A DNA stretch of 12,515 nucleotides from a bacterium. GTDB taxonomy: Bacteria; Blakebacterota; Blakebacteria; Blakebacterales; Blakebacteraceae. The position numbers and the translations under genes are program-made. The stretch spans positions 1 through 12,515 of the forward strand of contig JALGVQ010000105.1 of NCBI GenBank assembly GCA_025774615.1. The letters run 5' to 3'. Position 1 is the stretch's first letter, and each line of letters begins with the position of its first letter. The notes under the pieces were generated by a model. That model made no database searches. It saw only the letters and a program-made list of their open reading frames with translations, and was not told the origin of the DNA. Of the stretch, positions 1,426 through 12,515 are shown in pieces.

Positions 1426-2934
1426 TCAGCCGACAGAGCCTTCGAGCGTAATCTGAAGCAGGTTGGAAGCTTCCACCGCGAACTCCATCGGCAGATGGTC
1501 GAAAACCTCTTTGCAGAAACCATTCACGATCATCGAGAGTGCATCCTCACCGCTGATACCCCGGGAAGCGCAGTAGAAGAGCTGATCCTCACCGACCTTC
1601 GAGGTTGAAGCTTCATGTTCAGTCTGCGCGGTCGGGTTTCTGACGTCGATGTAGGGGAAGGTGTGAGCGCCGCACTGGTCACCGATCAGCATCGAATCAC
1701 ATTGCGAATAATTCCGGGCGTTCTCCGCGCTCTTGCCGATCCGGACGAGTCCCCGGTAGGTGTTCTGACCATGCCCGGCCGAGATCCCCTTCGAGATGAT
1801 GGTGCTTTTCGAGCCCTTCCCGATATGGATCATCTTGGTACCGGTATCAGCCTGCTGGTAATTGCTCGATACAGCCACCGAGTAGAACTCACCGATCGAG
1901 TTCTCACCTTTCAGGATGCAGGAGGGATACTTCCAGGTAATGGCCGACCCGGTCTCCACCTGGCTCCACGATATCTTCGAACGGTCACCATCACAGAGTC
2001 CCCGCTTGGTGACAAAATTGTAGATACCCCCTACGCCCTGTTCATCTCCCGGGTACCAGTTCTGGACCGTCGAATAACGTATCTCCGCGTCCTTGTGGGC
2101 ATACAGCTCAACCACCGCGGCGTGCAGCTGGTTCTCATCCCGCATCGGTGCTGTACAGCCTTCCAGGTAGCTGACACGGCTTCCTTCGTCGGCGATGATG
2201 AGGGTCCGTTCAAATTGCCCGGTATTTGAGGCATTGATCCTGAAATAGGTAGAGAGCTCCATCGGACAGTGGACACCGGGAGGTACGTATACGAACGATC
2301 CGTCGGTGAATACCGCCGAATTCAGAGCAGCGTAATAGTTGTCACGGTGAGGCACAACCGATCCCAGGTACTGCTGAACCAGTTCAGGGTGTTCCCTGAC
2401 CGCTTCGGAGAATGAGCAGAAGATCACCCCCACCTCGGCCAGCTTGTCCTTGAACGTTGTTGCCACCGACACGCTATCGAAGATCGCGTCGACGGCCACG
2501 CCTGCCAGCTTCTTCTGCTCCAGCAGGGGGATGCCAAGTTTCTCGTAGGTGTCAAGGATCTCGGGATCGACCTCATCAAGACTCTTCGGCTGATCACCAG
2601 CCATCGACTTCGGTGCCGAGTAGTAGCTGATCGCCTGGAAATTGATAGGGGGATAAGAGACATTAGCCCAGGTCGGTTCAATCATGGTGAGCCAGTTGCG
2701 GTACGACTTCAGCCGCCACTCCAACAGCCAGTCCGGCTCATTCTTCTTCATGGAGATCAGTTTGATCACATCTTCGTCGAGACCGGGTGGAAGGGTGTCC
2801 TGCTCGACATCAGTTACGAAACCTTCCCGGTATTTCCGCTCTTCCAGCTGCCTGATTGCGTCCTCGGTTGTGGCAGGTGTGCTGGGCCCGGGCGCAACAG
2901 GTGCGGTTCCTTCGCTGTGATCGATCTCTGACAT
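1426..2934 (-). CDS. sufB: Fe-S cluster scaffold protein SufB
   Basis: SufB is the core scaffold subunit of the SufBC2D complex, on which nascent Fe-S clusters assemble in the cytoplasm. The 502-residue protein carries the strongly conserved C-terminal half: [39 protein letters not shown], then FYCASRGIS and the end EGSVG. The cysteine in FYC (C455) and the glutamate in PMEF (E484) are 29 residues apart, the same spacing as E. coli C405 and E434, the two residues needed for activity there. The protein is slightly long because of a Pro/Thr/Ala-rich N-terminal stretch of about 25 residues. The ATG at 2934 is preceded by GAGGA at a suitable distance. It is first in the sufBCD operon; no sufA, sufS, sufE or regulator gene is present between it and the divergent porin gene. 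Confidence 0.97.
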
Positions 2935-2977
2935 GGATATCCTCGGTATAAACCCGACAAATTTCGTCGCTTTTAAT

Positions 2978-2996
2978 GTGCCTGTATGATAGGCAC
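2978..2996. repeat. palindrome around the suf -10 element (operator candidate)
   Basis: GTGCCT (2978-2983) and AGGCAC (2991-2996) form a perfect 6-bp inverted repeat with a 7-bp spacer. The spacer plus the edge of the right arm contains the -10 hexamer of the suf promoter, so a dimeric protein bound here would block RNA polymerase. There is no T-run and it lies at the promoter, so a terminator role is unlikely. The binding protein is unknown. Confidence 0.45.
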
Positions 2997-3013
2997 CCTG
3001 TATGCCCTGTCAA
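2986..3013 (-). promoter_or_regulatory. sigma70-type promoter of sufBCD
   Basis: On the minus strand TTGACA (3013-3008, 6/6 to the -35 consensus) is followed after 16 bp by TATCAT (2991-2986, 5/6 to TATAAT). Transcription would start near 2979, leaving a leader of about 45 nt before the sufB ATG. Within that leader CGAC (2969-2966) and GTCG (2958-2955) can pair over a 7-nt loop. This is the best promoter match in the window. It is flanked by two palindromes, listed separately, so it is probably regulated. Confidence 0.72.
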
Positions 3014-3033
3014 CCCCTGTTATTACAGGGGTT
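3012..3033. repeat. 22-bp perfect palindrome at the suf -35 element (operator candidate)
   Basis: AACCCCTGT (3012-3020), spacer TATT, then ACAGGGGTT (3025-3033): a perfect 9-bp inverted repeat. The left end overlaps the suf -35 box (3008-3013). It carries the hexamer CCCTGT, which recurs in the same orientation at 2996-3001, 3005-3010, 3015-3020 and 3053-3058, so the region may bind a regulator at several sites. In other bacteria suf promoters are controlled by Rrf2-type (IscR, SufR) or Fur regulators; the sequence does not match a consensus closely enough for me to name one. Confidence 0.5.
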
Positions 3034-3057
3034 TACGCCCATTGGAATGTTTCCCTG

Positions 3058-3091
3058 TTGTCACACGATCGCCACACCTTATCTAGATAAT
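3058..3091 (+). promoter_or_regulatory. Pho-box-like promoter of the porin gene
   Basis: TTGTCAC (3058-3064) and TCGCCAC (3069-3075) are two 7-bp half-sites in 11-bp register, and ATGTTTC (3047-3053) is a weaker one 11 bp further upstream. Exactly 10 bp after 3075 lies GATAAT (3086-3091), 5/6 to the -10 consensus. The PhoB-activated phoA promoter of E. coli has the same geometry: two CTGTCAT-like repeats 11 bp apart, 10 bp, then a -10. TTGTCAC matches the Pho consensus in 6/7 positions and TCGCCAC in 4/7, so this is a moderate match. Transcription would start near 3098, giving a leader of about 100 nt. The 264-bp space 2935-3198 otherwise contains the suf promoter and no gene. Confidence 0.5.
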
Positions 3092-3183
3092 GGGAGCGTT
3101 CAAAGCAGTCGAATCTGATGAGATACCGGATCGGGAATGCTGACATGTACATTTCCCGCGAATTCCGGTCGAACCGTCCAATC

Positions 3184-3190
3184 AAGGAGA
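3184..3190 (+). promoter_or_regulatory. ribosome binding site that fixes the porin start
   Basis: AAGGAGA, 8 nt before the ATG at 3199. The reading frame is open further upstream to an ATG at 3118, but that codon has no Shine-Dalgarno sequence and would put about 27 polar residues before the signal peptide. Confidence 0.8.
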
Positions 3191-3198
3191 TTCTTCGG

Positions 3199-4194
3199 AT
3201 GTTCCGACGAGTTCTTACTGCCGCCACCGTGATCATGGTGATCGTCTCTCTCGGCACACCGGCCCGGGCTCAGGTAGCTGGAAACGGCACCCTCAAGGGG
3301 AGGGCCTATTTCGACCTTTCGCAGGGATTGAGTGATGATGTGGACAATATGCTGACCCACGGATTCCGCCGGGTCTACTTCACCTATGACACGCAGATGA
3401 GCGAAGGCATTACCGGGCGTTTCCGCACCGACGTGAAACAGGATGGTGACGGGAAGTATCGTCTCTTCATCAAGCATGTCTACGCTGACTGGATAGCATC
3501 CGGCGTGGTGAGTATCCGCGCGGGAATGATGGGTACACCTTTCTTCGGAACCATCGAGGAGGTCTGGGCCTACCGGGGTGTAGAGATGACGATGCAGGAC
3601 TACTTCAAGATCCGTTCATCGGCAGATCTGGGGGTGATGGCCCGGATCAGGCTGAACGAGATGATTGCATTGAATGTCATGCTCAGTAACGGCGACGGCT
3701 ACAGCAAACTCGATGACATTTCATTCGGCAAGGCGTATGAGATACAGGGGGTCTTCACTCCGGTCGACGGCCTGCTCGTGACCGCTCACTTCGGGATGAA
3801 CGGGTTCGACAGTGACGGCGACCCGCTGACCGAAGGCGACATGGAGAACACAACCACCATGGATCTCTCGGTCGGGTATGAGAGTGGGAACTTCGTGGTC
3901 GGTGGCTCATACACCACCCAGTCGAACTACCGGTTCACCCTCGACCAGGACGGAGCCGGTTTCTGGGGCTTCGGCCGTTTCACGATCCCTGAATCACCCC
4001 TGACCGTGCTGGCCAGCTACATGAACTGGGATCCCGATACCGGCGTGGATGATGACACCATGACGCTGTTGCTCATCGGTCTCGATTACACCCCCGGCAA
4101 GGGGCTGAGCATCATTCCGAACTTCCATCAGACGAAGACGGGCAGTGGTGATCCCACCAACGTGTTCCGGGTTACCTTCAACTGGAAGTGGTAG
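3199..4194 (+). CDS. outer-membrane beta-barrel porin, possibly phosphate-related
   Basis: The 331-residue product begins with a clear signal peptide (MFRRVLTAATVIMVIVSLGT, cleavage probably after ARA at 22-24) and continues as alternating strands rich in aromatic and Gly/Asp residues, ending in FNWKW; a final aromatic residue is the usual mark for insertion by the Bam machinery. It is therefore probably an outer-membrane porin. Stretches such as RRVYFTYDTQMSEGITGRFR, then GTPFFGTIEEVWAYRGVEMT, and SSADLGVMARIRLNE resemble the 'porin O/P-like' proteins of diderm bacteria. Which solute passes is not shown by the sequence. The neighbourhood (phoR ends 9 bp from its end, and a Pho-box-like promoter lies upstream) suggests phosphate. 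It stands alone, divergent from suf and convergent with phoR. Start chosen by the AAGGAGA site and the signal peptide. Confidence 0.8.
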   Translation: MFRRVLTAATVIMVIVSLGTPARAQVAGNGTLKGRAYFDLSQGLSDDVDNMLTHGFRRVYFTYDTQMSEGITGRFRTDVKQDGDGKYRLFIKHVYADWIASGVVSIRAGMMGTPFFGTIEEVWAYRGVEMTMQDYFKIRSSADLGVMARIRLNEMIALNVMLSNGDGYSKLDDISFGKAYEIQGVFTPVDGLLVTAHFGMNGFDSDGDPLTEGDMENTTTMDLSVGYESGNFVVGGSYTTQSNYRFTLDQDGAGFWGFGRFTIPESPLTVLASYMNWDPDTGVDDDTMTLLLIGLDYTPGKGLSIIPNFHQTKTGSGDPTNVFRVTFNWKW

Positions 4195-4203
4195 GGGATA
4201 CGG

Positions 4204-5955
4204 TCAGGCGACAGGCAGGGTGAACCAGAAGAGGGAGCCGCCGTCGGGCGCCGGTTCGAAGCCGGCTCTCCCGCCCATCGCTTCCGCCAGGTGGCGAACG
4301 ATGGAGAGTCCGAGTCCAGTACCTCCGGCTTCCCTCGATCGTCCTTCATCGATCCGGTAGAAACGTTCGAAGATACGGTCCCGGTGTCTGAGTTCGATCC
4401 CCGGACCGTTGTCGATCACTTCGATTCTGATCTCGCCGTCGCGGTTCTCTGCGCGCACGATGATCTTCCCGCCTTCAGGGGTAAACTTGATCGCGTTGTC
4501 CAGGAGGTTCAGGAATATCTGCTCTATTCCCTGAGGGTCAGCTGTGACTGCCATTTCGTCCGGGATCCCGACGATAAGTTCATGCTCTCTTCCCTCGATG
4601 AGGTCTCCAAGGGACCTGACTGTGCTCTGCAGTACTCCTTGGAGCTGCAGTGTGACCGTTTCTGCCTGGAATCCATCACTCTCCAGCCTGGAGAGGTCGA
4701 GCAGGTCGTCCACCAGGTTCGAGAGGCGTTCGGCATCATTGAGGATGTTGCCGATAAACCGGACCGCGTGTTCCCGATCATCAAGAGCTCCATCGATCAG
4801 GGTTTCGGCATTGGCCCTGATCACGCTCACTGGTGTACGCAGTTCGTGGGATACATTCGCCAGAAAGTCACGTCTGATACGTTCCAGCCGTCTCAATTCG
4901 GTGACGTCGATCAGGACCAGGACTGCACCGCCATTCACATCGAGGGGTGTTGCCCGGACGAGCAGAGTGAGCGCCTGATCCCCGAGCAGCGCGATTTCTC
5001 CGGCAGCGGGAGTGCCGGCCCGGGCGGAATTCACAAGACGGTCGAGATCGGGTGACCGGACCGTTTCGAGAAGGGTTCGTCCAACCGGTTCCTCTTTCAG
5101 ACTGAGCAGAGACATGGCCCGTGGATTGACCATCGTGATCCGCTGGTCTGCATCGAGGGCGATCACCGCGCCATGCATGCTGTCCAGGACCGCCTGGAAG
5201 CGGTTCCGTTCATCGGACAACGTGGAAACGGTGTGTTCCAACTCCTCTGCGATCTGGTTTATCGATCCGGCCAGCCCTCCAAGTTCATCGCGGCTCCGGG
5301 GAAGTAATCTACGGCCCATCTCGCCGGAGGCCAGGGAACGCGCTCCGTCGGCGATCTCCAGCAATGTGCGTGCAAGGAGGCGGGAGATGACCCATGAAAC
5401 CAGGAGAGCGAGGATGACCCCGAGCAGTCCGGCGACGGCGAGGAACTCCCGGAATCGTCCGATGGCGGTGTGCACCTCGGTCAGTGGTCGGGATACCCGT
5501 ACGACACCTGATCCTTCCTCCCGGGACCAGGGCAGCGCCAGGTAGAGCATGTCGGTGCCCAGAGTCGTGCTGTAGCGACGGGCTACTCCGCGGCCTTCTG
5601 TGAGGGCCTGATGGATCTCACTCCGGTTACGGTGGTTCTCGACTGCTCTGATCTCGTCGAGGTTCAGCTCGGTGTCACCGAAGACCACTCCTTCACCCGA
5701 GATGATCGTGACTCTGACATCCACGAGCCCACCGATGGAATCAGCCAGTGCGTCCCAGGCTGTCAGTGAGTCGAACCGGGGTGTACATTCGACCTGCTGG
5801 CGGGTGAGGCGCGCGAAATCGGTCAGTTCGCTCTCTATCCGCTCCTCATACCAGTCCCTCAGACGGTTCTCCAGATAGAGTCCGCTTGCGACGATCATGA
5901 TGAGGATTGCTGCACCCGAGCTGAGAAAGATCTTCCCCCGCATGCCGATCCTCAC
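4204..5955 (-). CDS. phoR: phosphate-regulon sensor histidine kinase PhoR
   Basis: PhoR phosphorylates PhoB when phosphate is low. The 583-residue inner-membrane protein has a first membrane helix (about residues 9-28), an extracytoplasmic domain (about 29-170), a second helix (about 171-194), a HAMP linker (to about 245), a PAS domain (about 250-350), a HisKA domain with the phospho-accepting histidine in NVSHELRTP (H370), and an ATPase domain with NLLDNAIKFTP (483-493), DNGPGI (515-520), FERFYRID and GGTGLGLSIV. The sizeable extracytoplasmic domain resembles Bacillus-type PhoR rather than the short loop of E. coli. The start is a GTG at 5955 overlapping the phoB stop (GTGA) with GGAG upstream; an ATG at 5943, preceded by GAGG, is an equally possible start. 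It is last in the pst operon, which supports PhoR over another two-component kinase. Confidence 0.93.
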   Translation of the reverse strand: MRIGMRGKIFLSSGAAILIMIVASGLYLENRLRDWYEERIESELTDFARLTRQQVECTPRFDSLTAWDALADSIGGLVDVRVTIISGEGVVFGDTELNLDEIRAVENHRNRSEIHQALTEGRGVARRYSTTLGTDMLYLALPWSREEGSGVVRVSRPLTEVHTAIGRFREFLAVAGLLGVILALLVSWVISRLLARTLLEIADGARSLASGEMGRRLLPRSRDELGGLAGSINQIAEELEHTVSTLSDERNRFQAVLDSMHGAVIALDADQRITMVNPRAMSLLSLKEEPVGRTLLETVRSPDLDRLVNSARAGTPAAGEIALLGDQALTLLVRATPLDVNGGAVLVLIDVTELRRLERIRRDFLANVSHELRTPVSVIRANAETLIDGALDDREHAVRFIGNILNDAERLSNLVDDLLDLSRLESDGFQAETVTLQLQGVLQSTVRSLGDLIEGREHELIVGIPDEMAVTADPQGIEQIFLNLLDNAIKFTPEGGKIIVRAENRDGEIRIEVIDNGPGIELRHRDRIFERFYRIDEGRSREAGGTGLGLSIVRHLAEAMGGRAGFEPAPDGGSLFWFTLPVA

Positions 5956-6668
5956 TCCGGGACTCCATTCACTCTGGCGCGGAACCGGTAGCCGACCCCC
6001 CTGATGGTCTCGATATAATCTCCTGCCGTCCCCAGTTTCACTCTGAGACGTTTGATATGGGTGTCGACGGTCCTGGTCGTCACATCGGCCTCGATGCCCC
6101 AGACATCATCAAGGAGGATTGTGCGGGTCTGTACTCGCCCCTTGCGCCTGAGGAGGACATTCAGCAGTCGGAATTCAAGCGCGGTCAGCTGTATCTCCTC
6201 TTCTCCCACCCAGACCCGGTGTCCATCCTGATCGATACGGAGCATCCCGAACACGTGTTCGTCCAGTAGTGCCTCCGGGGGCATCCGGCGGCGCAGGATC
6301 ACCTTCACTCGCAGCATCAGTTCACGCATGCTGAATGGTTTGACCACGTAATCGTCAGCTCCGACCTCGAAACCGACCACCCGATCGATCTCGTCACCCC
6401 TGGCGGTGAGTATGATGACGAAGACTTCGCGGGTCAGTTCATTCTCCCGGAGGCTCCGGCAGACCTGCGTGCCGGGGATGTCGGGCAGCATCAGATCGAG
6501 CAGAATGAGGTCGGGGACCGGTTCAGTGGAGGCCAGCTCGAGTCCCTCGGCTCCGGTCATCGCAGTCCTGGTCTGGAAGCCGTTCTTCTGGAGATTGTAA
6601 TCGAGGGTGCTCAGAAGCCCCTCTTCATCCTCGATGACGAGGACAAGCCCGGAGGCCATCTCATCCAT
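5952..6668 (-). CDS. phoB: phosphate-regulon response regulator PhoB
   Basis: PhoB is an OmpR-family transcription factor that, once phosphorylated by PhoR, binds Pho boxes and activates phosphate-starvation genes. The 238-residue protein has a receiver domain with the acidic pair E13/D14, phospho-acceptor D58 (ILLDLMLPD), T88 and K110 (VKPF), and a winged-helix DNA-binding domain with LTALEFRLLNVL, then TRTVDTHIKRLR and the C-terminal IRGVGYRF hairpin. Length is typical of the family. The ATG at 6668 lies inside the end of arsC (8-bp overlap); an ATG at 6659 is an alternative start that would remove three residues. The stop overlaps the phoR start, so the two are translationally coupled. Its likely targets in this window are the tandem repeats before pstS and the site before the porin. 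Confidence 0.93.
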   Translation of the reverse strand: MDEMASGLVLVIEDEEGLLSTLDYNLQKNGFQTRTAMTGAEGLELASTEPVPDLILLDLMLPDIPGTQVCRSLRENELTREVFVIILTARGDEIDRVVGFEVGADDYVVKPFSMRELMLRVKVILRRRMPPEALLDEHVFGMLRIDQDGHRVWVGEEEIQLTALEFRLLNVLLRRKGRVQTRTILLDDVWGIEADVTTRTVDTHIKRLRVKLGTAGDYIETIRGVGYRFRARVNGVPE

Positions 6669-7104
6669 ATCGGGCCTGCCCGGTCTTCAGGTGCTGCAGA
6701 TATTCTTCGATGCGGGATCCGATCTCATTCCGGATGAGTCGGAAAACGTCCATGATCTCCTCCTCCGATCCGGTCGCTCCGGCCGGATCATCGAACGGCC
6801 AGTGATCCTTCTCAACGCCCGGCGGCAGGATCGGGCAGTGCTCATCGGCGTGTCCGCACACCGTGATCACCAGCTCGGCCCGCTCGATCATCGCATCAGT
6901 CACACGGGTCGACTCCTGGCTGGCGATGTCGATCCCGATCTCCGCCATGGCCCGGATGGCGCGCGGATTCTGGCCGTGAGCCTCAATCCCGGCCGATTCC
7001 GCCTCGATGAGACCGGCGCCCAGTTGGTGGGCGAATCCCTCTGCCATCTGTGATCGGCATGAATTGCCCGTACAGAGGAAGAGTATTCTGCGAGGGTGCA
7101 TCAT
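6661..7104 (-). CDS. arsC: thioredoxin-coupled arsenate reductase ArsC
   Basis: The 147-residue cytoplasmic protein belongs to the low-molecular-weight tyrosine-phosphatase fold. It carries the P-loop CTGNSCRSQMAEG (CX5R: C11, R17) and, decisively, C83 and C90 in VCGHADEHCP, followed by HWPFDDPA with the general-acid aspartate (D105). In the well-studied Staphylococcus and Bacillus enzymes C10, C82 and C89 carry out the thiol relay that reduces arsenate to arsenite and is recycled by thioredoxin; the spacing here is the same. A plain phosphatase would lack the last two cysteines. The start ATG overlaps the phoU stop (ATGA) and its end overlaps phoB, so it is an integral member of the phosphate operon. 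No arsenite exporter or arsR is present in the window. Arsenate is a phosphate mimic taken up by phosphate transporters, which explains the placement. Confidence 0.9.
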   Translation of the reverse strand: MMHPRRILFLCTGNSCRSQMAEGFAHQLGAGLIEAESAGIEAHGQNPRAIRAMAEIGIDIASQESTRVTDAMIERAELVITVCGHADEHCPILPPGVEKDHWPFDDPAGATGSEEEIMDVFRLIRNEIGSRIEEYLQHLKTGQARYG

Positions 7105-7778
7105 TTCGACGGCATCTCCCCGGCATCGGGCTGGTGGCGGATAATCTGGCCCTCCACCATGAAAACCACCTCTTCGGCGATGTTGGTGGCGTGATCGGCG
7201 ATCCGTTCGAGTTGCCGTGAGACCGAGAGGATATGGACCGCTTCATCGAGTGTTTCCGGATTCTGTCTGATGTGATCCTGCACGGTCTCATACATCAGAC
7301 GATGGGTCTCATCCACTTCATCATCCCTCTGAATGATCTCCCTGGCCAGCGCCGCATCCTCATTCACCAGGGAATCGAGACTGTCTTTCACCATCTGCCG
7401 TGTCGTTGCGGTCATGTCGATCAGATCTTCAGGTATCGAGATCGGTTCATGATCGGTGAGGAACTCGGCACGCTCGGCGATGTTGACTGCCAGATCGGCC
7501 ATCCGTTCCAGATCGTTGTTCACCATCATGCAGGCTACCACGAACCGGAGATCGCTCGCGACCGGCTGATGGAGTGCCAGGATCTTGAGACAGTTCTCGG
7601 CGATGTCGACCTCTTTCTGATCGATCACTTCTTCATCCTGCAGGACCTCCGCCACCAGGGAATCGTCCCGGTTCATGAGGGCGGTGATCGACTTGTTGAT
7701 CGCTTCTTCTACCAGACCGCCCATGGCCAGGAGTTCCTGCCTGACGTTCTCAAGGTCTCTGAACAGATGCATCGACAT
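7101..7778 (-). CDS. phoU: phosphate signalling regulator PhoU
   Basis: PhoU is the cytoplasmic protein that connects the Pst transporter to PhoR and keeps the kinase from activating PhoB when phosphate is plentiful. The 225-residue protein is made of two similar three-helix PhoU domains; each ends in the characteristic metal-binding helix: NDLERMADLAVNIAE in the first half and RQLERIADHATNIAEEV in the second. Length fits the family. The ATG at 7778 has AAGGG 9 nt upstream; a second in-frame ATG two codons later is possible. A 70-bp gap separates it from pstB, and its stop overlaps the arsC start. Confidence 0.95.
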   Translation of the reverse strand: MSMHLFRDLENVRQELLAMGGLVEEAINKSITALMNRDDSLVAEVLQDEEVIDQKEVDIAENCLKILALHQPVASDLRFVVACMMVNNDLERMADLAVNIAERAEFLTDHEPISIPEDLIDMTATTRQMVKDSLDSLVNEDAALAREIIQRDDEVDETHRLMYETVQDHIRQNPETLDEAVHILSVSRQLERIADHATNIAEEVVFMVEGQIIRHQPDAGEMPSK

Positions 7779-7848
7779 CGATACTATCCCTTCGCATATG
7801 CGGCGGCACCAGTGGCAGTCGCGCCATGTGTGATGTTTCCAGGCGCTA
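7779..7848 (-). other. pstB-phoU intergenic gap
   Basis: This is the largest gap inside the phosphate operon (70 bp) and has no gene. It contains a 10-bp palindrome CGCATATGCG (7793-7802), and a GCGCC/GGCGC pair (7842-7846 with 7821-7825) that could form a weak 5-bp stem. There is no T-run to make a terminator and no clear promoter or Pho box. Confidence 0.35.
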
Positions 7849-8682
7849 TCATCCGAACCGTCCGGTCACGTAATCCTCAGTCTGTTTCTCACGCGGTCGG
7901 GTGAAAACCTGTTCAGTCTCACCATATTCGACCAGATACCCCTCATAGAGGAACACCGTATTGTCGGAGACACGGGCCGCCTGCTGCATGTTATGGGTTA
8001 CGATGATGATTGTATACCGACCGCGGAATTCACCGATCAGATCTTCGATCCGGGCGGTCGACTTCGGGTCGAGGGCCGAGGTCGGTTCGTCCATCAGCAG
8101 GATCTCGGGATCGACGGCAAGCGCCCGCGCGATGCAGAGACGCTGCTGCTGACCGCCGGAGAGACCGAGAGCGTTGTCATCGAGCCGGTCCTTCGCCTCG
8201 TTCCACAGGGCCGCACGATTGAGACTCTTCTCAACGATCCCATCGAGCGTGCTCCGGTCCCTGATCCCGTGGATTCTGGGACCATAGGCGATGTTGTCAT
8301 AGATCGATTTCGGAAACGGGTTCGGCTTCTGGAACACCATCCCGACCCGCTTGCGAAGGACGGTGACGTCGACATCATCGCTATAGACATGATGCCCGTC
8401 GTAGTAGAGACCCCCATCGGTCGTGGCGCCGGGGATCAGGTCGTTCATCCGGTTGATGGCCCGCAGGAAGGTGCTCTTGCCGCATCCGCTGGGGCCGATG
8501 ATGGAGGTGACCTGACCGCTCGGGATCGAGAGGGTGACGTCACTGACCGCGGCCTTCCCGTTGTAGTACACCCAGAACGAATCCGCCCTGACATGGGCTT
8601 CAGCGCCATCTGCCTGCGTCCCTTCGACACGTTCTTCCATGATCGCCTGTCGGGGGGTGGATATCTCCGCTGGAGAGATCAT
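7849..8682 (-). CDS. pstB: phosphate ABC transporter ATP-binding protein PstB
   Basis: PstB hydrolyses ATP to drive phosphate import through PstCA and, with PhoU, relays transporter activity to PhoR. The 277-residue protein has Walker [10 protein letters not shown] (63-71), a Q-loop with the PstB-type [20 protein letters not shown] run (117-136), signature LSGGQQQR (174-181), Walker [14 protein letters not shown] (194-206) and switch H230. The phosphate-specific Q-loop region separates it from other ABC ATPases. The core begins near residue 30; the N-terminal extension of about 20 residues over E. coli PstB makes the start uncertain. The ATG at 8682 has only a weak AGG upstream and the ATG at 8640 (codon 15) is an alternative with a similar AGG. 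It lies 9 bp after pstA. Confidence 0.95.
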
Positions 8683-8691
8683 GACCTGATC

Positions 8692-9970
8692 TTACCCTTT
8701 CAGTTTCTTCGCCACCCGCGCTCTGAGGATGACCGCGGCCAGGTTGAGAGTCAGAACGAGGCCCACGAGCGCCAGAACCATGCCGTACTGGACGTGGCGG
8801 ATCAGATCCACCGCCTCATGTTCCGTGGCCAGATTGTAGATGTTCCATGGCAGAGCCGGGGTCGGCTGGCTGAAGACCTGCCAGAATTTCAGCGGCAGGC
8901 CGACACTTACCGCGGCTGTGAAGATGATCGGGGCGGTCTCACCGGCGGCGCGCCCCATGCTGATGACGATGCCGGTGAGGATCCCGGGCAGGGCCGCGGG
9001 CAGCACGACCGTCACGACCGTCCACCACCTGCTCGATCCGAGGCTGAGGGAGGCTTCCTTGTAAGTGCGGGGCACAGCCAGGATCGCCTCCTCGGAGGCC
9101 CTGATGATCACCGGCAGTACCAGCAGGCCGAGGGTGAGTGATCCTGCCAGTACGCTCTTGGCCGGCGATATGTGCATGGTGTTGATGAAGAACGCCAGTC
9201 CGAAGAGACCGAAGACGATACTGGGCACCCCGGCCAGGGTGTTGATGCAGGTTCTGATGATGCTGACGATCATCCCCTGTCGGGAGTATTCGGTCAGGTA
9301 GATCGCAGCGATGATACCCATGGGAACGGCGAAGAGCATCGCTCCAAGCGCAAGGTAGAAGGTGCCGAGCAGTTCGGGCCAGATGCCGCCGAAGAAATGA
9401 GAGTCGATCGGATTGTCGAACAGGAACCGCCAGTAGAAGGTCAGACGAGGCCACAGCATCACAGTGGCATTGTTCTCGATATACGCGAAGAGGGGCTCGA
9501 TTGAGGTACCCCGGAACTCCTCCACGCGCGGAGTATGGACCAGCACTCCCATCTGTGTCGGATCGGAGTAATCCCAGCTCTCGATCATCAGCACCCGTTG
9601 CGTCGCATCCTGTGCCTGGTCCCATCTGGTCTGACCGTACTGGTCACGGATCAGAACCGGGATGTGAGCGCCCGGGGCGGGACCGAGCAGGAAACGGATA
9701 TGATCCTCGAGTTCGCTTACAGAACTCCGGTACCGCATCCTGTCGGAGAAACTCATGGTGTCGAGTTCAGCCTCGAACGCGGCGATCATGTCGTAGACCG
9801 GCTGACGGACATCGATCGCCCGGCACCGTACCCTGGAAGAGGTAGGCATCGAGCCCCTTGATGACCATCGGTACCAGGATGATGAGCAGAGAGGCGGCAA
9901 GCAGGCCGATCGCCAGGTAGCCCAGACCGGAGAAAGTGCGGTCGAGCAGTTTTCTTATCTCTCCCGTCAC
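8692..9970 (-). pseudogene. pstA: phosphate ABC transporter permease PstA with an apparent +1 frameshift
   Basis: PstA is one of two inner-membrane permease subunits of the phosphate transporter. Reading starts at a GTG at 9970 (GAGGGG upstream, 3 bp after the pstC stop) and encodes a first membrane helix (residues 17-38) up to about FQGTV (49); that frame then stops at 9767. The rest of PstA, from about RAIDVRQPVYDM, continues in another frame from about 9822 to the stop at 8692. Joining them needs one base fewer, for example one G of the GGG run at 9817-9819 region, giving about 425 residues. The second part has a long extracytoplasmic region (about residues 50-195), then membrane helices with the permease loop EEAILAVPRTYKEASLSLGSS and GRAAGETAPI. 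Such a large domain between helices 1 and 2 also occurs in some proteobacterial PstA proteins (DUF3333 type). The frameshift may be real or a sequencing error. Confidence 0.8.
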
Positions 9971-9973
9971 CGG

Positions 9974-11113
9974 TCAGCCCCTCTGCCGTCTGATCCGGGC
10001 TGAGAACCGCTCGCTGACCAGGTTGGAGATGAATGAGATGGCCAGCAATGAGAGGGCCATGGCGAAGAGGACGCTGTATCTGGCCGAACCGGTGACGTGG
10101 TCGGCCTCCCCCATATCACCCGCGATGGTAGCAGTGAGGGTCCTGACCGGTTCGAGGAAGTTGAAGAACGGTTCGGGGATCTGGGCGGCGTTTCCGGAGG
10201 CCATCCAGACGACCATCGTCTCCCCGACCGCGCGCATCACCCCGAGGATGACCGCGGCGACAATACCGCTCGCGGCGGCCGGCATGACGACCTTCAGCAG
10301 GGTCTCGGCGCGGGTCGATCCGAGAGCGTAACTTCCCTCCCTCAGATCGCGGCCAACGGCCTGGAGGGCATCCTCCGAGACGCTTACAACGGTCGGAACC
10401 GCCATGATACCGAGTATGATCGATACGTTCAGGGCGTTTGTGCCACTCTCGATCACCAGACCTGACAACCAGCCGCCGATCATGGAGAGGATCGCCAGCG
10501 ATACCAGCCCCAATACCACCCACGATCCGATCTTCGTCCAACGACGGTGGCGTTCTGGCACCCTGATGGATATCAGACTGCCGATGATCCATGTCCCGAG
10601 GGCCGCCACGGGGATCCCGGTGACCCAGAGTGCGGTGCTGAGCAGATTTCCGCCCCGTTCCTGGAGCAGGGGAGCGAATATGACGAGGGCGAAGAAGCCA
10701 TAGGCTACCGAGGGTATGGCAGCGAGAACCTCGATCACCGGCTTGACCATCTGACGAACCTCGAATCTGAGGATGTCGCTCATGCAGATGGCCGCGGTGA
10801 TCCCCAGGGGGACAGCCACGAGTACCGCTCCGAGAGTGACGAGGCCCGTTCCGACGAAAATCGCCGCCGTGCCGAATGAGGCCGGATCACCCGATGGATA
10901 CCACCGGGTACTGGTAAAGAACTCCCTGAATCCCTGCAGCTGGAAGAAGGGGAGGGCGTCTTTGGCGATGAAATAGAAGATAAAGAGTACCGCGAACACC
11001 GAGAGTGAGGTGATCAGCAGCAGCGTGCCTTCCCCGGCAAGGGAACCGAACCGTCTTGCCCGGCTGGCTCCCCTGCTCAGCAGCAGGTCTTCTGTCGTCT
11101 TCCTCTCAGCCAT
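9974..11113 (-). CDS. pstC: phosphate ABC transporter permease PstC
   Basis: PstC pairs with PstA to form the phosphate channel in the inner membrane. The 379-residue protein has a first helix (about 29-50), a helix near 82-110, PVIEVLAAIPSVAYGFFALVIFAPL (125-149), the permease coupling loop SEDALQAVGRDLREGSYALGST (246-267), MRAVGETM (293-300), and a last helix near 347-366. These IPSVxYG and RAxGETM motifs are typical of PstC. It is about 60 residues longer than E. coli PstC, largely because of two extra hydrophobic segments (about 159-183 and 195-221) between FAPL and the coupling loop. The ATG at 11113 directly abuts a hairpin that fills the gap after pstS; no good Shine-Dalgarno sequence is visible. 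Its stop is 3 bp before pstA. Confidence 0.93.
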   Translation of the reverse strand: MAERKTTEDLLLSRGASRARRFGSLAGEGTLLLITSLSVFAVLFIFYFIAKDALPFFQLQGFREFFTSTRWYPSGDPASFGTAAIFVGTGLVTLGAVLVAVPLGITAAICMSDILRFEVRQMVKPVIEVLAAIPSVAYGFFALVIFAPLLQERGGNLLSTALWVTGIPVAALGTWIIGSLISIRVPERHRRWTKIGSWVVLGLVSLAILSMIGGWLSGLVIESGTNALNVSIILGIMAVPTVVSVSEDALQAVGRDLREGSYALGSTRAETLLKVVMPAAASGIVAAVILGVMRAVGETMVVWMASGNAAQIPEPFFNFLEPVRTLTATIAGDMGEADHVTGSARYSVLFAMALSLLAISFISNLVSERFSARIRRQRG

Positions 11114-11144: not shown

Positions 11145-12002
11145 CTACCGATACGCGGTGACCGGGACGAATCCGATCGATGCGACGATCTCCTGCCCCC
11201 GCTCGGTCAGGTAGAGGGTGATGAAGCGGTGCAGGTGACTGCCCAGCTTCGGGTACCCGTTCGTGAACAGGTAGAGCGGGCGGGCGATAGGGTAGGCGCC
11301 GGAAATGATCGTTTCACTGTTCGCTTCGACACCGTTGACAGGGATCGGCTTGACCGTCCGGTCGACGAAGCCGAGTCCCACATAACCGATCGCGTTCTGC
11401 GTCGATTGGATACGCTGGCGGATCGCGCCGTTGGAACCGACGTACTCGGCGCTCTGGGTGATCTCTTCCTTGTTCATCACGAGGCCCTGGAAGGTCTCGT
11501 AGGTGCCGCTGTTGGTGTCACGGCTTACGATGGTAATCGATCGGTCGGGACCGCCGACCTCACTCCAGCTGGTGATCTCACCCTTGTAGATCCTCTTTAC
11601 CTGATCGATTGTCAGGCCACGCACCGGATTCGAGGGGTGGAGTACGATCGCCAGTCCGTCGAGCGCGACTACATGGGCAACCGGCATGAGACCGGCCTCG
11701 GTCGCGGCGGCGAATTCAGTCTCCTTCATGAATCGGGACATGGCGGCGATATCACAGGCGCTGTTCATCAGGCTCTTGGCGCCATTGCCACTCCCCGATT
11801 CGCTCACCGTGATGTTCACGCCGGGATTCTGCCGCATGTAATATTCAGCGAACGCCTTGGCGATTGGACCGACCGTGGTCGATCCATCGATGACGATCCG
11901 GTTCTCCTGCATCTGCGCCGAGATTCTGGCCGGGCTCATCGAAGAGGCCAGGCCGATCGTCAATGCGAGGGCGACCAGGTACATGGTCGAACTGGATTTC
12001 AC
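11145..12002 (-). CDS. pstS: periplasmic phosphate-binding protein PstS
   Basis: PstS captures phosphate in the periplasm and delivers it to PstCA. From the GTG at 12002 the product is 285 residues: a signal peptide with K2 and a hydrophobic core (residues 7-22), cleavage probably after ISA (29), then IDGSTTVGPIAKAF (phosphate-loop region, 40-44), SGSGNGAKSL (69-78), CDIAAMSRFMKE (83-94) and VSRDTNSGTYETF (159-171), the ligand-binding elements of the family. It ends with a short FVPVTAYR. It is of the PstS_2 type. The frame is open upstream, with an ATG at 12014, but GGAGGT lies 5 nt before the GTG and would be inside the gene if the ATG were used. It is the first gene of the operon, downstream of tandem Pho boxes. 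Confidence 0.95.
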   Translation of the reverse strand: MKSSSTMYLVALALTIGLASSMSPARISAQMQENRIVIDGSTTVGPIAKAFAEYYMRQNPGVNITVSESGSGNGAKSLMNSACDIAAMSRFMKETEFAAATEAGLMPVAHVVALDGLAIVLHPSNPVRGLTIDQVKRIYKGEITSWSEVGGPDRSITIVSRDTNSGTYETFQGLVMNKEEITQSAEYVGSNGAIRQRIQSTQNAIGYVGLGFVDRTVKPIPVNGVEANSETIISGAYPIARPLYLFTNGYPKLGSHLHRFITLYLTERGQEIVASIGFVPVTAYR

Positions 12003-12103: not shown

Positions 12104-12140
12104 GACCGATTGTGCCAGGATTGTGACAGGAGGGTGACAA
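12096..12140 (-). promoter_or_regulatory. tandem Pho boxes and -10 of the pst operon promoter
   Basis: On the minus strand TTGTCAC (12140-12134), CTGTCAC (12129-12123) and CTGGCAC (12118-12112) lie in exact 11-bp register with 4-bp spacers CCTC and AATC. The PhoB consensus is CTGTCAT, a 4-bp spacer and CTGTCAC, so the three units match 6, 7 and 6 of 7 positions of the second half-site. A degenerate CGGTCAG follows, off register by one base. Ten bp after the third unit is TACTCT (12101-12096), which keeps the key T, A and final T of a -10. No -35 is present, as expected for PhoB-dependent activation. The leader from there to the pstS GTG would be about 85-90 nt, and could form a small GGGTA/TACCC stem (12033-12049). 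Confidence 0.78.
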
Positions 12141-12515
12141 GTGTCTGACTCCGCAGGTGGCTTGAGATCTGATGCATCGCGTCGGTCTGTGATACTGATC
12201 GGCCTCACCGTGGCGCTTCTGCTTCCGGCCGGATCTTCTATCAGGGGACAGGGAGCGCTGGAGAATCTGCTCGACCTCGGCAGGCTCCCTTACCTGAAGC
12301 AGAGCACCTTCCGCCAGATCGCGTCCAATGACACGACCGGCGGCAATGCCGACCGACTGGTAATTGCTCCGGGAGCGACCGCGACCCTGGCCGATATCGA
12401 AGGGCCGGGTGTGATCACCCGCATCTGGGTCACGATCTCGAGCAGCGATCCCCATTACCTGCGGCGGATACTCCTGCGGATGTACTGGGATGATGAGAAG
12501 ACTCCGAGCGTGGAG
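12141..12515 (+). CDS. secreted DUF2961 / GH172-like protein (N-terminal 125 residues, cut by window edge)
   Basis: The GTG at 12141 is preceded by AGGAGGG (12128-12134), and the frame is open to the last base of the window. The product begins with a positively charged then hydrophobic segment (RRSVILIGLTVALLLPAG, residues 14-31), a probable signal peptide, followed by a stretch typical of the start of DUF2961 proteins: ALENLLDLGRLPYLKQSTFR, then ASNDTTGGNADRL (61-73) and DIEGPGVITRIWVTIS (85-100). Members of this family (GH172) include fructofuranosidases and arabinofuranosidases that act on extracytoplasmic polysaccharide. The substrate here cannot be read from the sequence and the catalytic part lies outside the window. 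The gene is divergent from pstS and shares its upstream region, so it may respond to phosphate, but nothing else links it to phosphate uptake. Confidence 0.75.
   Translation, partial: MSDSAGGLRSDASRRSVILIGLTVALLLPAGSSIRGQGALENLLDLGRLPYLKQSTFRQIASNDTTGGNADRLVIAPGATATLADIEGPGVITRIWVTISSSDPHYLRRILLRMYWDDEKTPSVE

Follow-up and report, generated by a model that had tools for sequence, protein, structure and literature searches.

An arsenate reductase gene inside a predicted PhoB-controlled pst-pho operon of an uncultured bacterium

Introduction

The linkage of ars genes to pst/pho genes and the control of arsenic genes by low phosphate are both already known. In the arsenic gene islands of Proteobacteria and others (aioBA-ars-pst/phn; PMC3834237; Halomonas GFAJ-1, PMC5930303), as in the locus described here, arsenic-resistance and high-affinity phosphate genes are adjacent, which is explained by the mimicry of phosphate by arsenate. 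However, such islands contain complete ars operons and, in most cases, an additional copy of pst, whereas our locus has one arsC in the sole PstB locus detected in the genome, on a contig without arsR, aio or exporter. Phosphate and arsenic regulation are likewise cross-wired in Agrobacterium tumefaciens 5A, where ArsR represses pstS1/phoB1 (PMC7965956), and in Halomonas HAL1, where aioBA, an arsenic gene target, is preceded by a PHO box to which PhoB binds (PMC4563254). The HAL1 target is arsenite oxidase and in strain 5A it is the arsenic repressor that controls pst, while here PhoB is predicted to control an arsenate reductase by operon membership.

In cyanobacteria, with their pstS-gap-MFS-acr3 clusters and an arsB of Crocosphaera that is induced by phosphate starvation (reviewed in PMC4284471), low phosphate switches on arsenic detoxification, as we predict for our locus, but the genes are different, arsR is sometimes present, and the induced part is the exporter rather than the reductase. 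The LMWPc_ArsC of SAR11, whose gene frequency is inverse to phosphate (PMC6426599), is similar in that ArsC is favoured at low phosphate; it is reported beside an aquaporin and not described within a pst/pho operon. Our literature search found no description of a lone arsC inside pstSCAB-phoU-phoBR, a weak absence, as most subscription papers fell outside the search. The single-gene, ArsR-free insertion of arsC looks under-described.

Here we analyse such a case, in which arsC is best explained as a structural member of a PhoB-controlled pst-pho operon, detoxifying arsenate imported by Pst (probability roughly 0.8).

Results and Discussion

Organization of the locus

The window, that is, the whole stretch of DNA analysed, is one entire contig (C157, 12515 bp) from the 82% complete genome of an uncultured organism. 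On its minus strand the gene order is pstS-pstC-pstA-pstB-phoU-arsC-phoB-phoR:

11145..12002, minus strand: pstS (TIGR02136, above cut-off; start inferred as the GTG at 12002)
9974..11113, minus strand: pstC (above family cut-off)
8692..9900, minus strand: pstA (above family cut-off; true start uncertain)
7849..8682, minus strand: pstB (TIGR00972, 397 bits, cut-off 343)
7101..7778, minus strand: phoU (TIGR02135, 211.9 bits; its stop shares ATGA with the arsC start)
6661..7104, minus strand: arsC, thioredoxin-coupled (pI258/B. subtilis type) arsenate reductase, 147 aa (TIGR02691, P-loop, kept in a second species)
5952..6668, minus strand: phoB-type response regulator, starting 8 bp before the arsC end
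4204..5955, minus strand: phoR-type histidine kinase (HAMP-PAS-HisKA-HATPase)
3118..4194, plus strand: Porin_4-type outer-membrane porin, convergent with phoR

For PhoB and PhoR these are the best functional matches, yet both fall below their equivalog cut-offs. The open reading frame of pstS, listed as extending to 12455, is too long, and its likely start is the GTG behind a GGAGG. Divergent from pstS, the start of a DUF2961-like gene (12200-12515) is truncated by the contig end.

The overlaps of arsC with phoU (ATGA) and with phoB (8 bp), on which the first-pass annotation had based its reading of the locus, are both present in the window sequence. The pstSCAB-phoU genes are co-oriented with phoBR, and arsC lies between the two sets. 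The locus is not a classical ars operon, since arsR and an arsenite exporter are absent from the contig (the genome's acr3 lies on another, C282), nor, within the contig, an arsenic island, as arsC is its only arsenic gene.

The ArsC protein

The protein has cysteines at positions 11, 16, 83 and 90. The first opens a CX5R P-loop (C11-TGNSC-R17), and C83 and C90 are equivalent to the C82/C89 redox pair; the catalytic triad C11, C83 and C90, earlier described as intact, is indeed seen both in the translation and in the alignment to the ArsC proteins of B. subtilis and S. aureus, which spans P-loop, redox pair and DDP motif. Against TIGR02691 (arsC_pI258_fam) the protein scores 174.9 bits and so passes the equivalog cut-off of 174.3 narrowly. 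The enzymes of Staphylococcus pI258 and B. subtilis (1jf8, 1jl3) have the same fold and catalytic triad, and differ from the window ArsC in genomic context and predicted regulation.

ArsC belongs to the low-molecular-weight (LMW) phosphatase fold (PF01451), and this, together with the position of the gene between phoU and phoBR, is what might be expected if a protein of that fold had been taken into the operon to act as a phosphatase, serving phosphate signalling or scavenging, rather than for arsenate detoxification. The genomes of one family (f76) that have the same linkage and lack a recognised arsenite exporter would also fit such a role. However, C83 and C90 are required by the arsenate redox cycle and not by phosphatase chemistry, and the P-loop cysteine and a matching later cysteine pair are kept in all Pho-linked ArsCs examined. 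As the protein also passes the arsenate-reductase cut-off and the solved structures nearest to it are ArsC proteins, we consider a phosphatase role unlikely.

Conservation in a second species

In a metagenome-assembled genome (MAG) of another species of the same genus (G001:C346, L116), the region is collinear with window positions 2900-9085 at 85% nucleotide identity. The collinearity runs through both arsC junctions, so the arrangement did not arise by faulty assembly, and the phoU-arsC-phoB order, for which comparison with related genomes had been proposed, is kept in this relative. The ATGA overlap of phoU and arsC is retained there, whereas the 8-bp overlap of phoB and arsC is replaced by a 1-bp gap.

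Between the two species ArsC is 78.5% identical at the amino acid level, with a dN/dS of 0.16, from which we conclude that the gene is under purifying selection and hence maintained. This ratio is somewhat higher than those of phoU, phoB and pstB (0.08–0.09, or 0.08–0.13 with phoR included); it counts, as does the unconserved phoB overlap, against the reading of arsC as a structural operon member. An in-frame TGA in the G001 gene is its normal stop, slightly earlier than that of the window and read through by the search, which rules out both selenocysteine and a pseudogene.

The same MAG has a second arsC (G001:C50, L115 5441-8454), which stands alone with a DUF2961-like gene on one side and a porin on the other; genes of these two types also flank the pst-pho operon of the window. 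This second copy could represent a paralogous locus, what is left of a lost operon, or a contaminating sequence in the MAG.

Predicted regulation

The whole window was scanned for PHO boxes with a 7-4-7 pattern of 14 scored positions, and the sites of interest are:

12112..12140, minus strand: predicted PHO box TTGTCAC-CCTC-CTGTCAC-AATC-CTGGCAC, three half-sites with an 11-bp period, ~110 bp upstream of pstS
3058..3075, plus strand: PHO-box-like site upstream of the porin, 12/14

The only 14/14 match in the window (12140-12123) lies within the first of these, upstream of the first gene of the operon, and the third half-site follows one 11-bp step on. Under a first-order Markov model, 0.01 sites scoring at least 13/14 are expected per window, and 14/14 was reached in none of 100 replicates. 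Within the operon no other site scored 12/14 or more, and promoter- and terminator-like sites were no commoner than in shuffled sequences. Because the pstS PHO box is thus accompanied by no internal signal beyond chance, predicted control of arsC by PhoB is the best reading.

It could be argued that arsC is only physically in the operon and is driven by its own arsenite- or arsenate-responsive promoter of the ArsR type inside phoU, as several ArsR-family HTH_5 proteins are encoded in the genomes. None of them is encoded on this contig, however, the scan found no promoter-like site near 7104, where arsC starts, and the ATGA overlap with phoU is tight, making an arsenic-responsive internal promoter very improbable.

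The porin is likely a phosphate-starvation porin. With the site upstream of it matching at 12/14, and its G001 orthologue at 13/14, it is probably co-regulated as another target of PhoB.

Under PhoB control, the operon would work as follows. When phosphate falls, PhoR would phosphorylate PhoB, which would bind the PHO box in front of pstS and activate pstSCAB-phoU-arsC-phoBR, presumably as one transcript. High-affinity import by Pst would also carry arsenate, the phosphate mimic, so that expression of arsC from this operon should coincide with the greatest risk of arsenate entry. Translationally coupled to phoU, ArsC would reduce arsenate to arsenite through a C11/C83/C90 thiol relay and thioredoxin, as its conserved residues suggest, and protect phosphate chemistry from poisoning. 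Arsenite would then exit via Acr3 (C282), apparently outside PhoB control. Co-transcription, phosphate-dependent induction, enzyme activity and a benefit to the cell are what we infer from the locus.

Arsenite export

The observation that no arsenite exporter is nearby holds for contig C157, but not for the genome, which has an acr3 on another contig (C282:19679-20791; 374.6 bits, cut-off 282.8). The pathway therefore need not stop at arsenite. We rejected PHO box control of this acr3, as its upstream region has no site of 11/14 or better.

Of 41 other genomes that encode ArsC as well as PstB, 27 have Acr3, mostly within ~2.5 kb of an arsC. In Pho-linked cases the exporter, where found, is elsewhere in the genome: besides C282, on C98 of G208, C31 of G370 and C8 of G048, with an ArsB-like protein in G127. 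A search for exporters found none in Pho-linked G078, G220 and G349 (each at least 98% complete), G323 or G001 (85% complete, no acr3), and aquaporin was found in none of the Pho-linked genomes. The first three, all from family f76 (L124, L125, L126), have arsC in the Pho operon and neither Acr3/SBF nor ArsB. The missing exporter in these and in G001 counts against detoxification of Pst-imported arsenate as the role of the gene, as the exit route of arsenite is not always clear.

Recurrence in other families

An arsR or acr3 gene lies no more than 3.5 kb away in 67 of the 80 nearest named ArsC loci, in agreement with the earlier remark that arsC usually sits in an ArsR/ars context. In just two of the 80 are pst/pho genes near neighbours. 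In Paenibacillus barengoltzii (L063) a full arsR-acr3-arsC operon follows a pst operon, and in a gammaproteobacterial MAG (L004) arsC-acr3 (5926-7499) lies between phoR and pstS. In the latter a 13/14 PHO box precedes arsC-acr3 by ~46 bp, in the stretch that separates phoR from arsC, and two more follow acr3, ahead of pstS. In this independent instance the arsenic genes carry a predicted PHO box of their own.

A wider census covered 386 genomes, with most families represented by one or a few. ArsC was found in 176, of which 142 were listed with positions, and 104 of these have PstB. Among the matches listed, ArsC is on the same strand as PstB and within ~7.5 kb of it in at least eight genomes from five families including the window's own. 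The four linked families besides the window's own (among the matches listed) compare with ~0.28 expected by chance (P ~2e-4), a rough value that uses one average genome size, counts pairs for each genome instead of each family and takes linkage from PstB only.

In these four families arsC lies in co-oriented pst/pho clusters (G078, G220, G349, G127, G208, G370), and in a fifth it is beside pstS (G048/G323). The gene orders differ:

f76: pstB-phoU-arsC, with the same kind of overlap, or pstB-arsC-phoB-phoR
f125: phoB-phoR-...-pstS-arsC-pstC-pstA-pstB-phoU
f184: arsC-phoR-...-pstS-pstC-pstA-pstB-phoU
f253: arsC-phoB-phoR-porin-pstS-...-pstB-phoU
f46: pstS-arsC

The pstS-arsC pair of G048 and G323 adjoins a pyrR-like gene (L120 7836-9110, L131 870-2154), and the PstB gene of G048 lies on a different contig from this pair. 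The Pho operon of G370 contains a distant homologue of the window porin (L129 8162-9235).

Phylogeny of ArsC

The ArsC tree was built from 118 proteins and 143 alignment columns, a short alignment that leaves its finer forks unsure. Pho-linked ArsCs require seven label changes on this tree, at least five of them forced by well-supported branches, and not one of 200 bootstrap trees unites these proteins in a single group. A single inherited clade of Pho-linked ArsCs is therefore rejected, and the same label changes point to repeated recruitment of arsC into pst/pho clusters by unrelated bacteria.

The window ArsC sits in a Pseudomonadota-dominated clade. This fits horizontal acquisition, and with the second G001 arsC outside the operon it is compatible with arsC being a passenger, inserted by chance and transcribed with the operon while gaining nothing from its control. 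However, both species of the genus retain the gene under purifying selection, and its recurrence in several unrelated families is well over chance expectation; we regard a mere passenger as improbable.

Conclusions

The view that arsC is an integral part of a pst-pho operon under PhoB control is supported by the gene order and overlaps, the catalytic residues, the PHO box, conservation in the second species, recurrence, and an Acr3 elsewhere in the genome. More tentatively, and with somewhat less than even confidence, we suggest that a lone, ArsR-free arsC has been repeatedly and independently recruited into pst-pho operons as a form of "import proofreading" within the high-affinity phosphate system, with arsenate reduced on its entry into the cell, in some lineages without a recognised dedicated arsenite exporter.

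If our reading is true, exposure to arsenate through phosphate scavenging, even at background levels of arsenic, shapes the phosphate-starvation operon, and such shaping would reach several unrelated bacterial families. It predicts that low phosphate alone, with arsenic absent, induces arsenate reductase. Counts of arsC in metagenomes may then be as much a sign of scarce phosphate as of arsenic pollution, in agreement with the pattern in SAR11 (PMC6426599).
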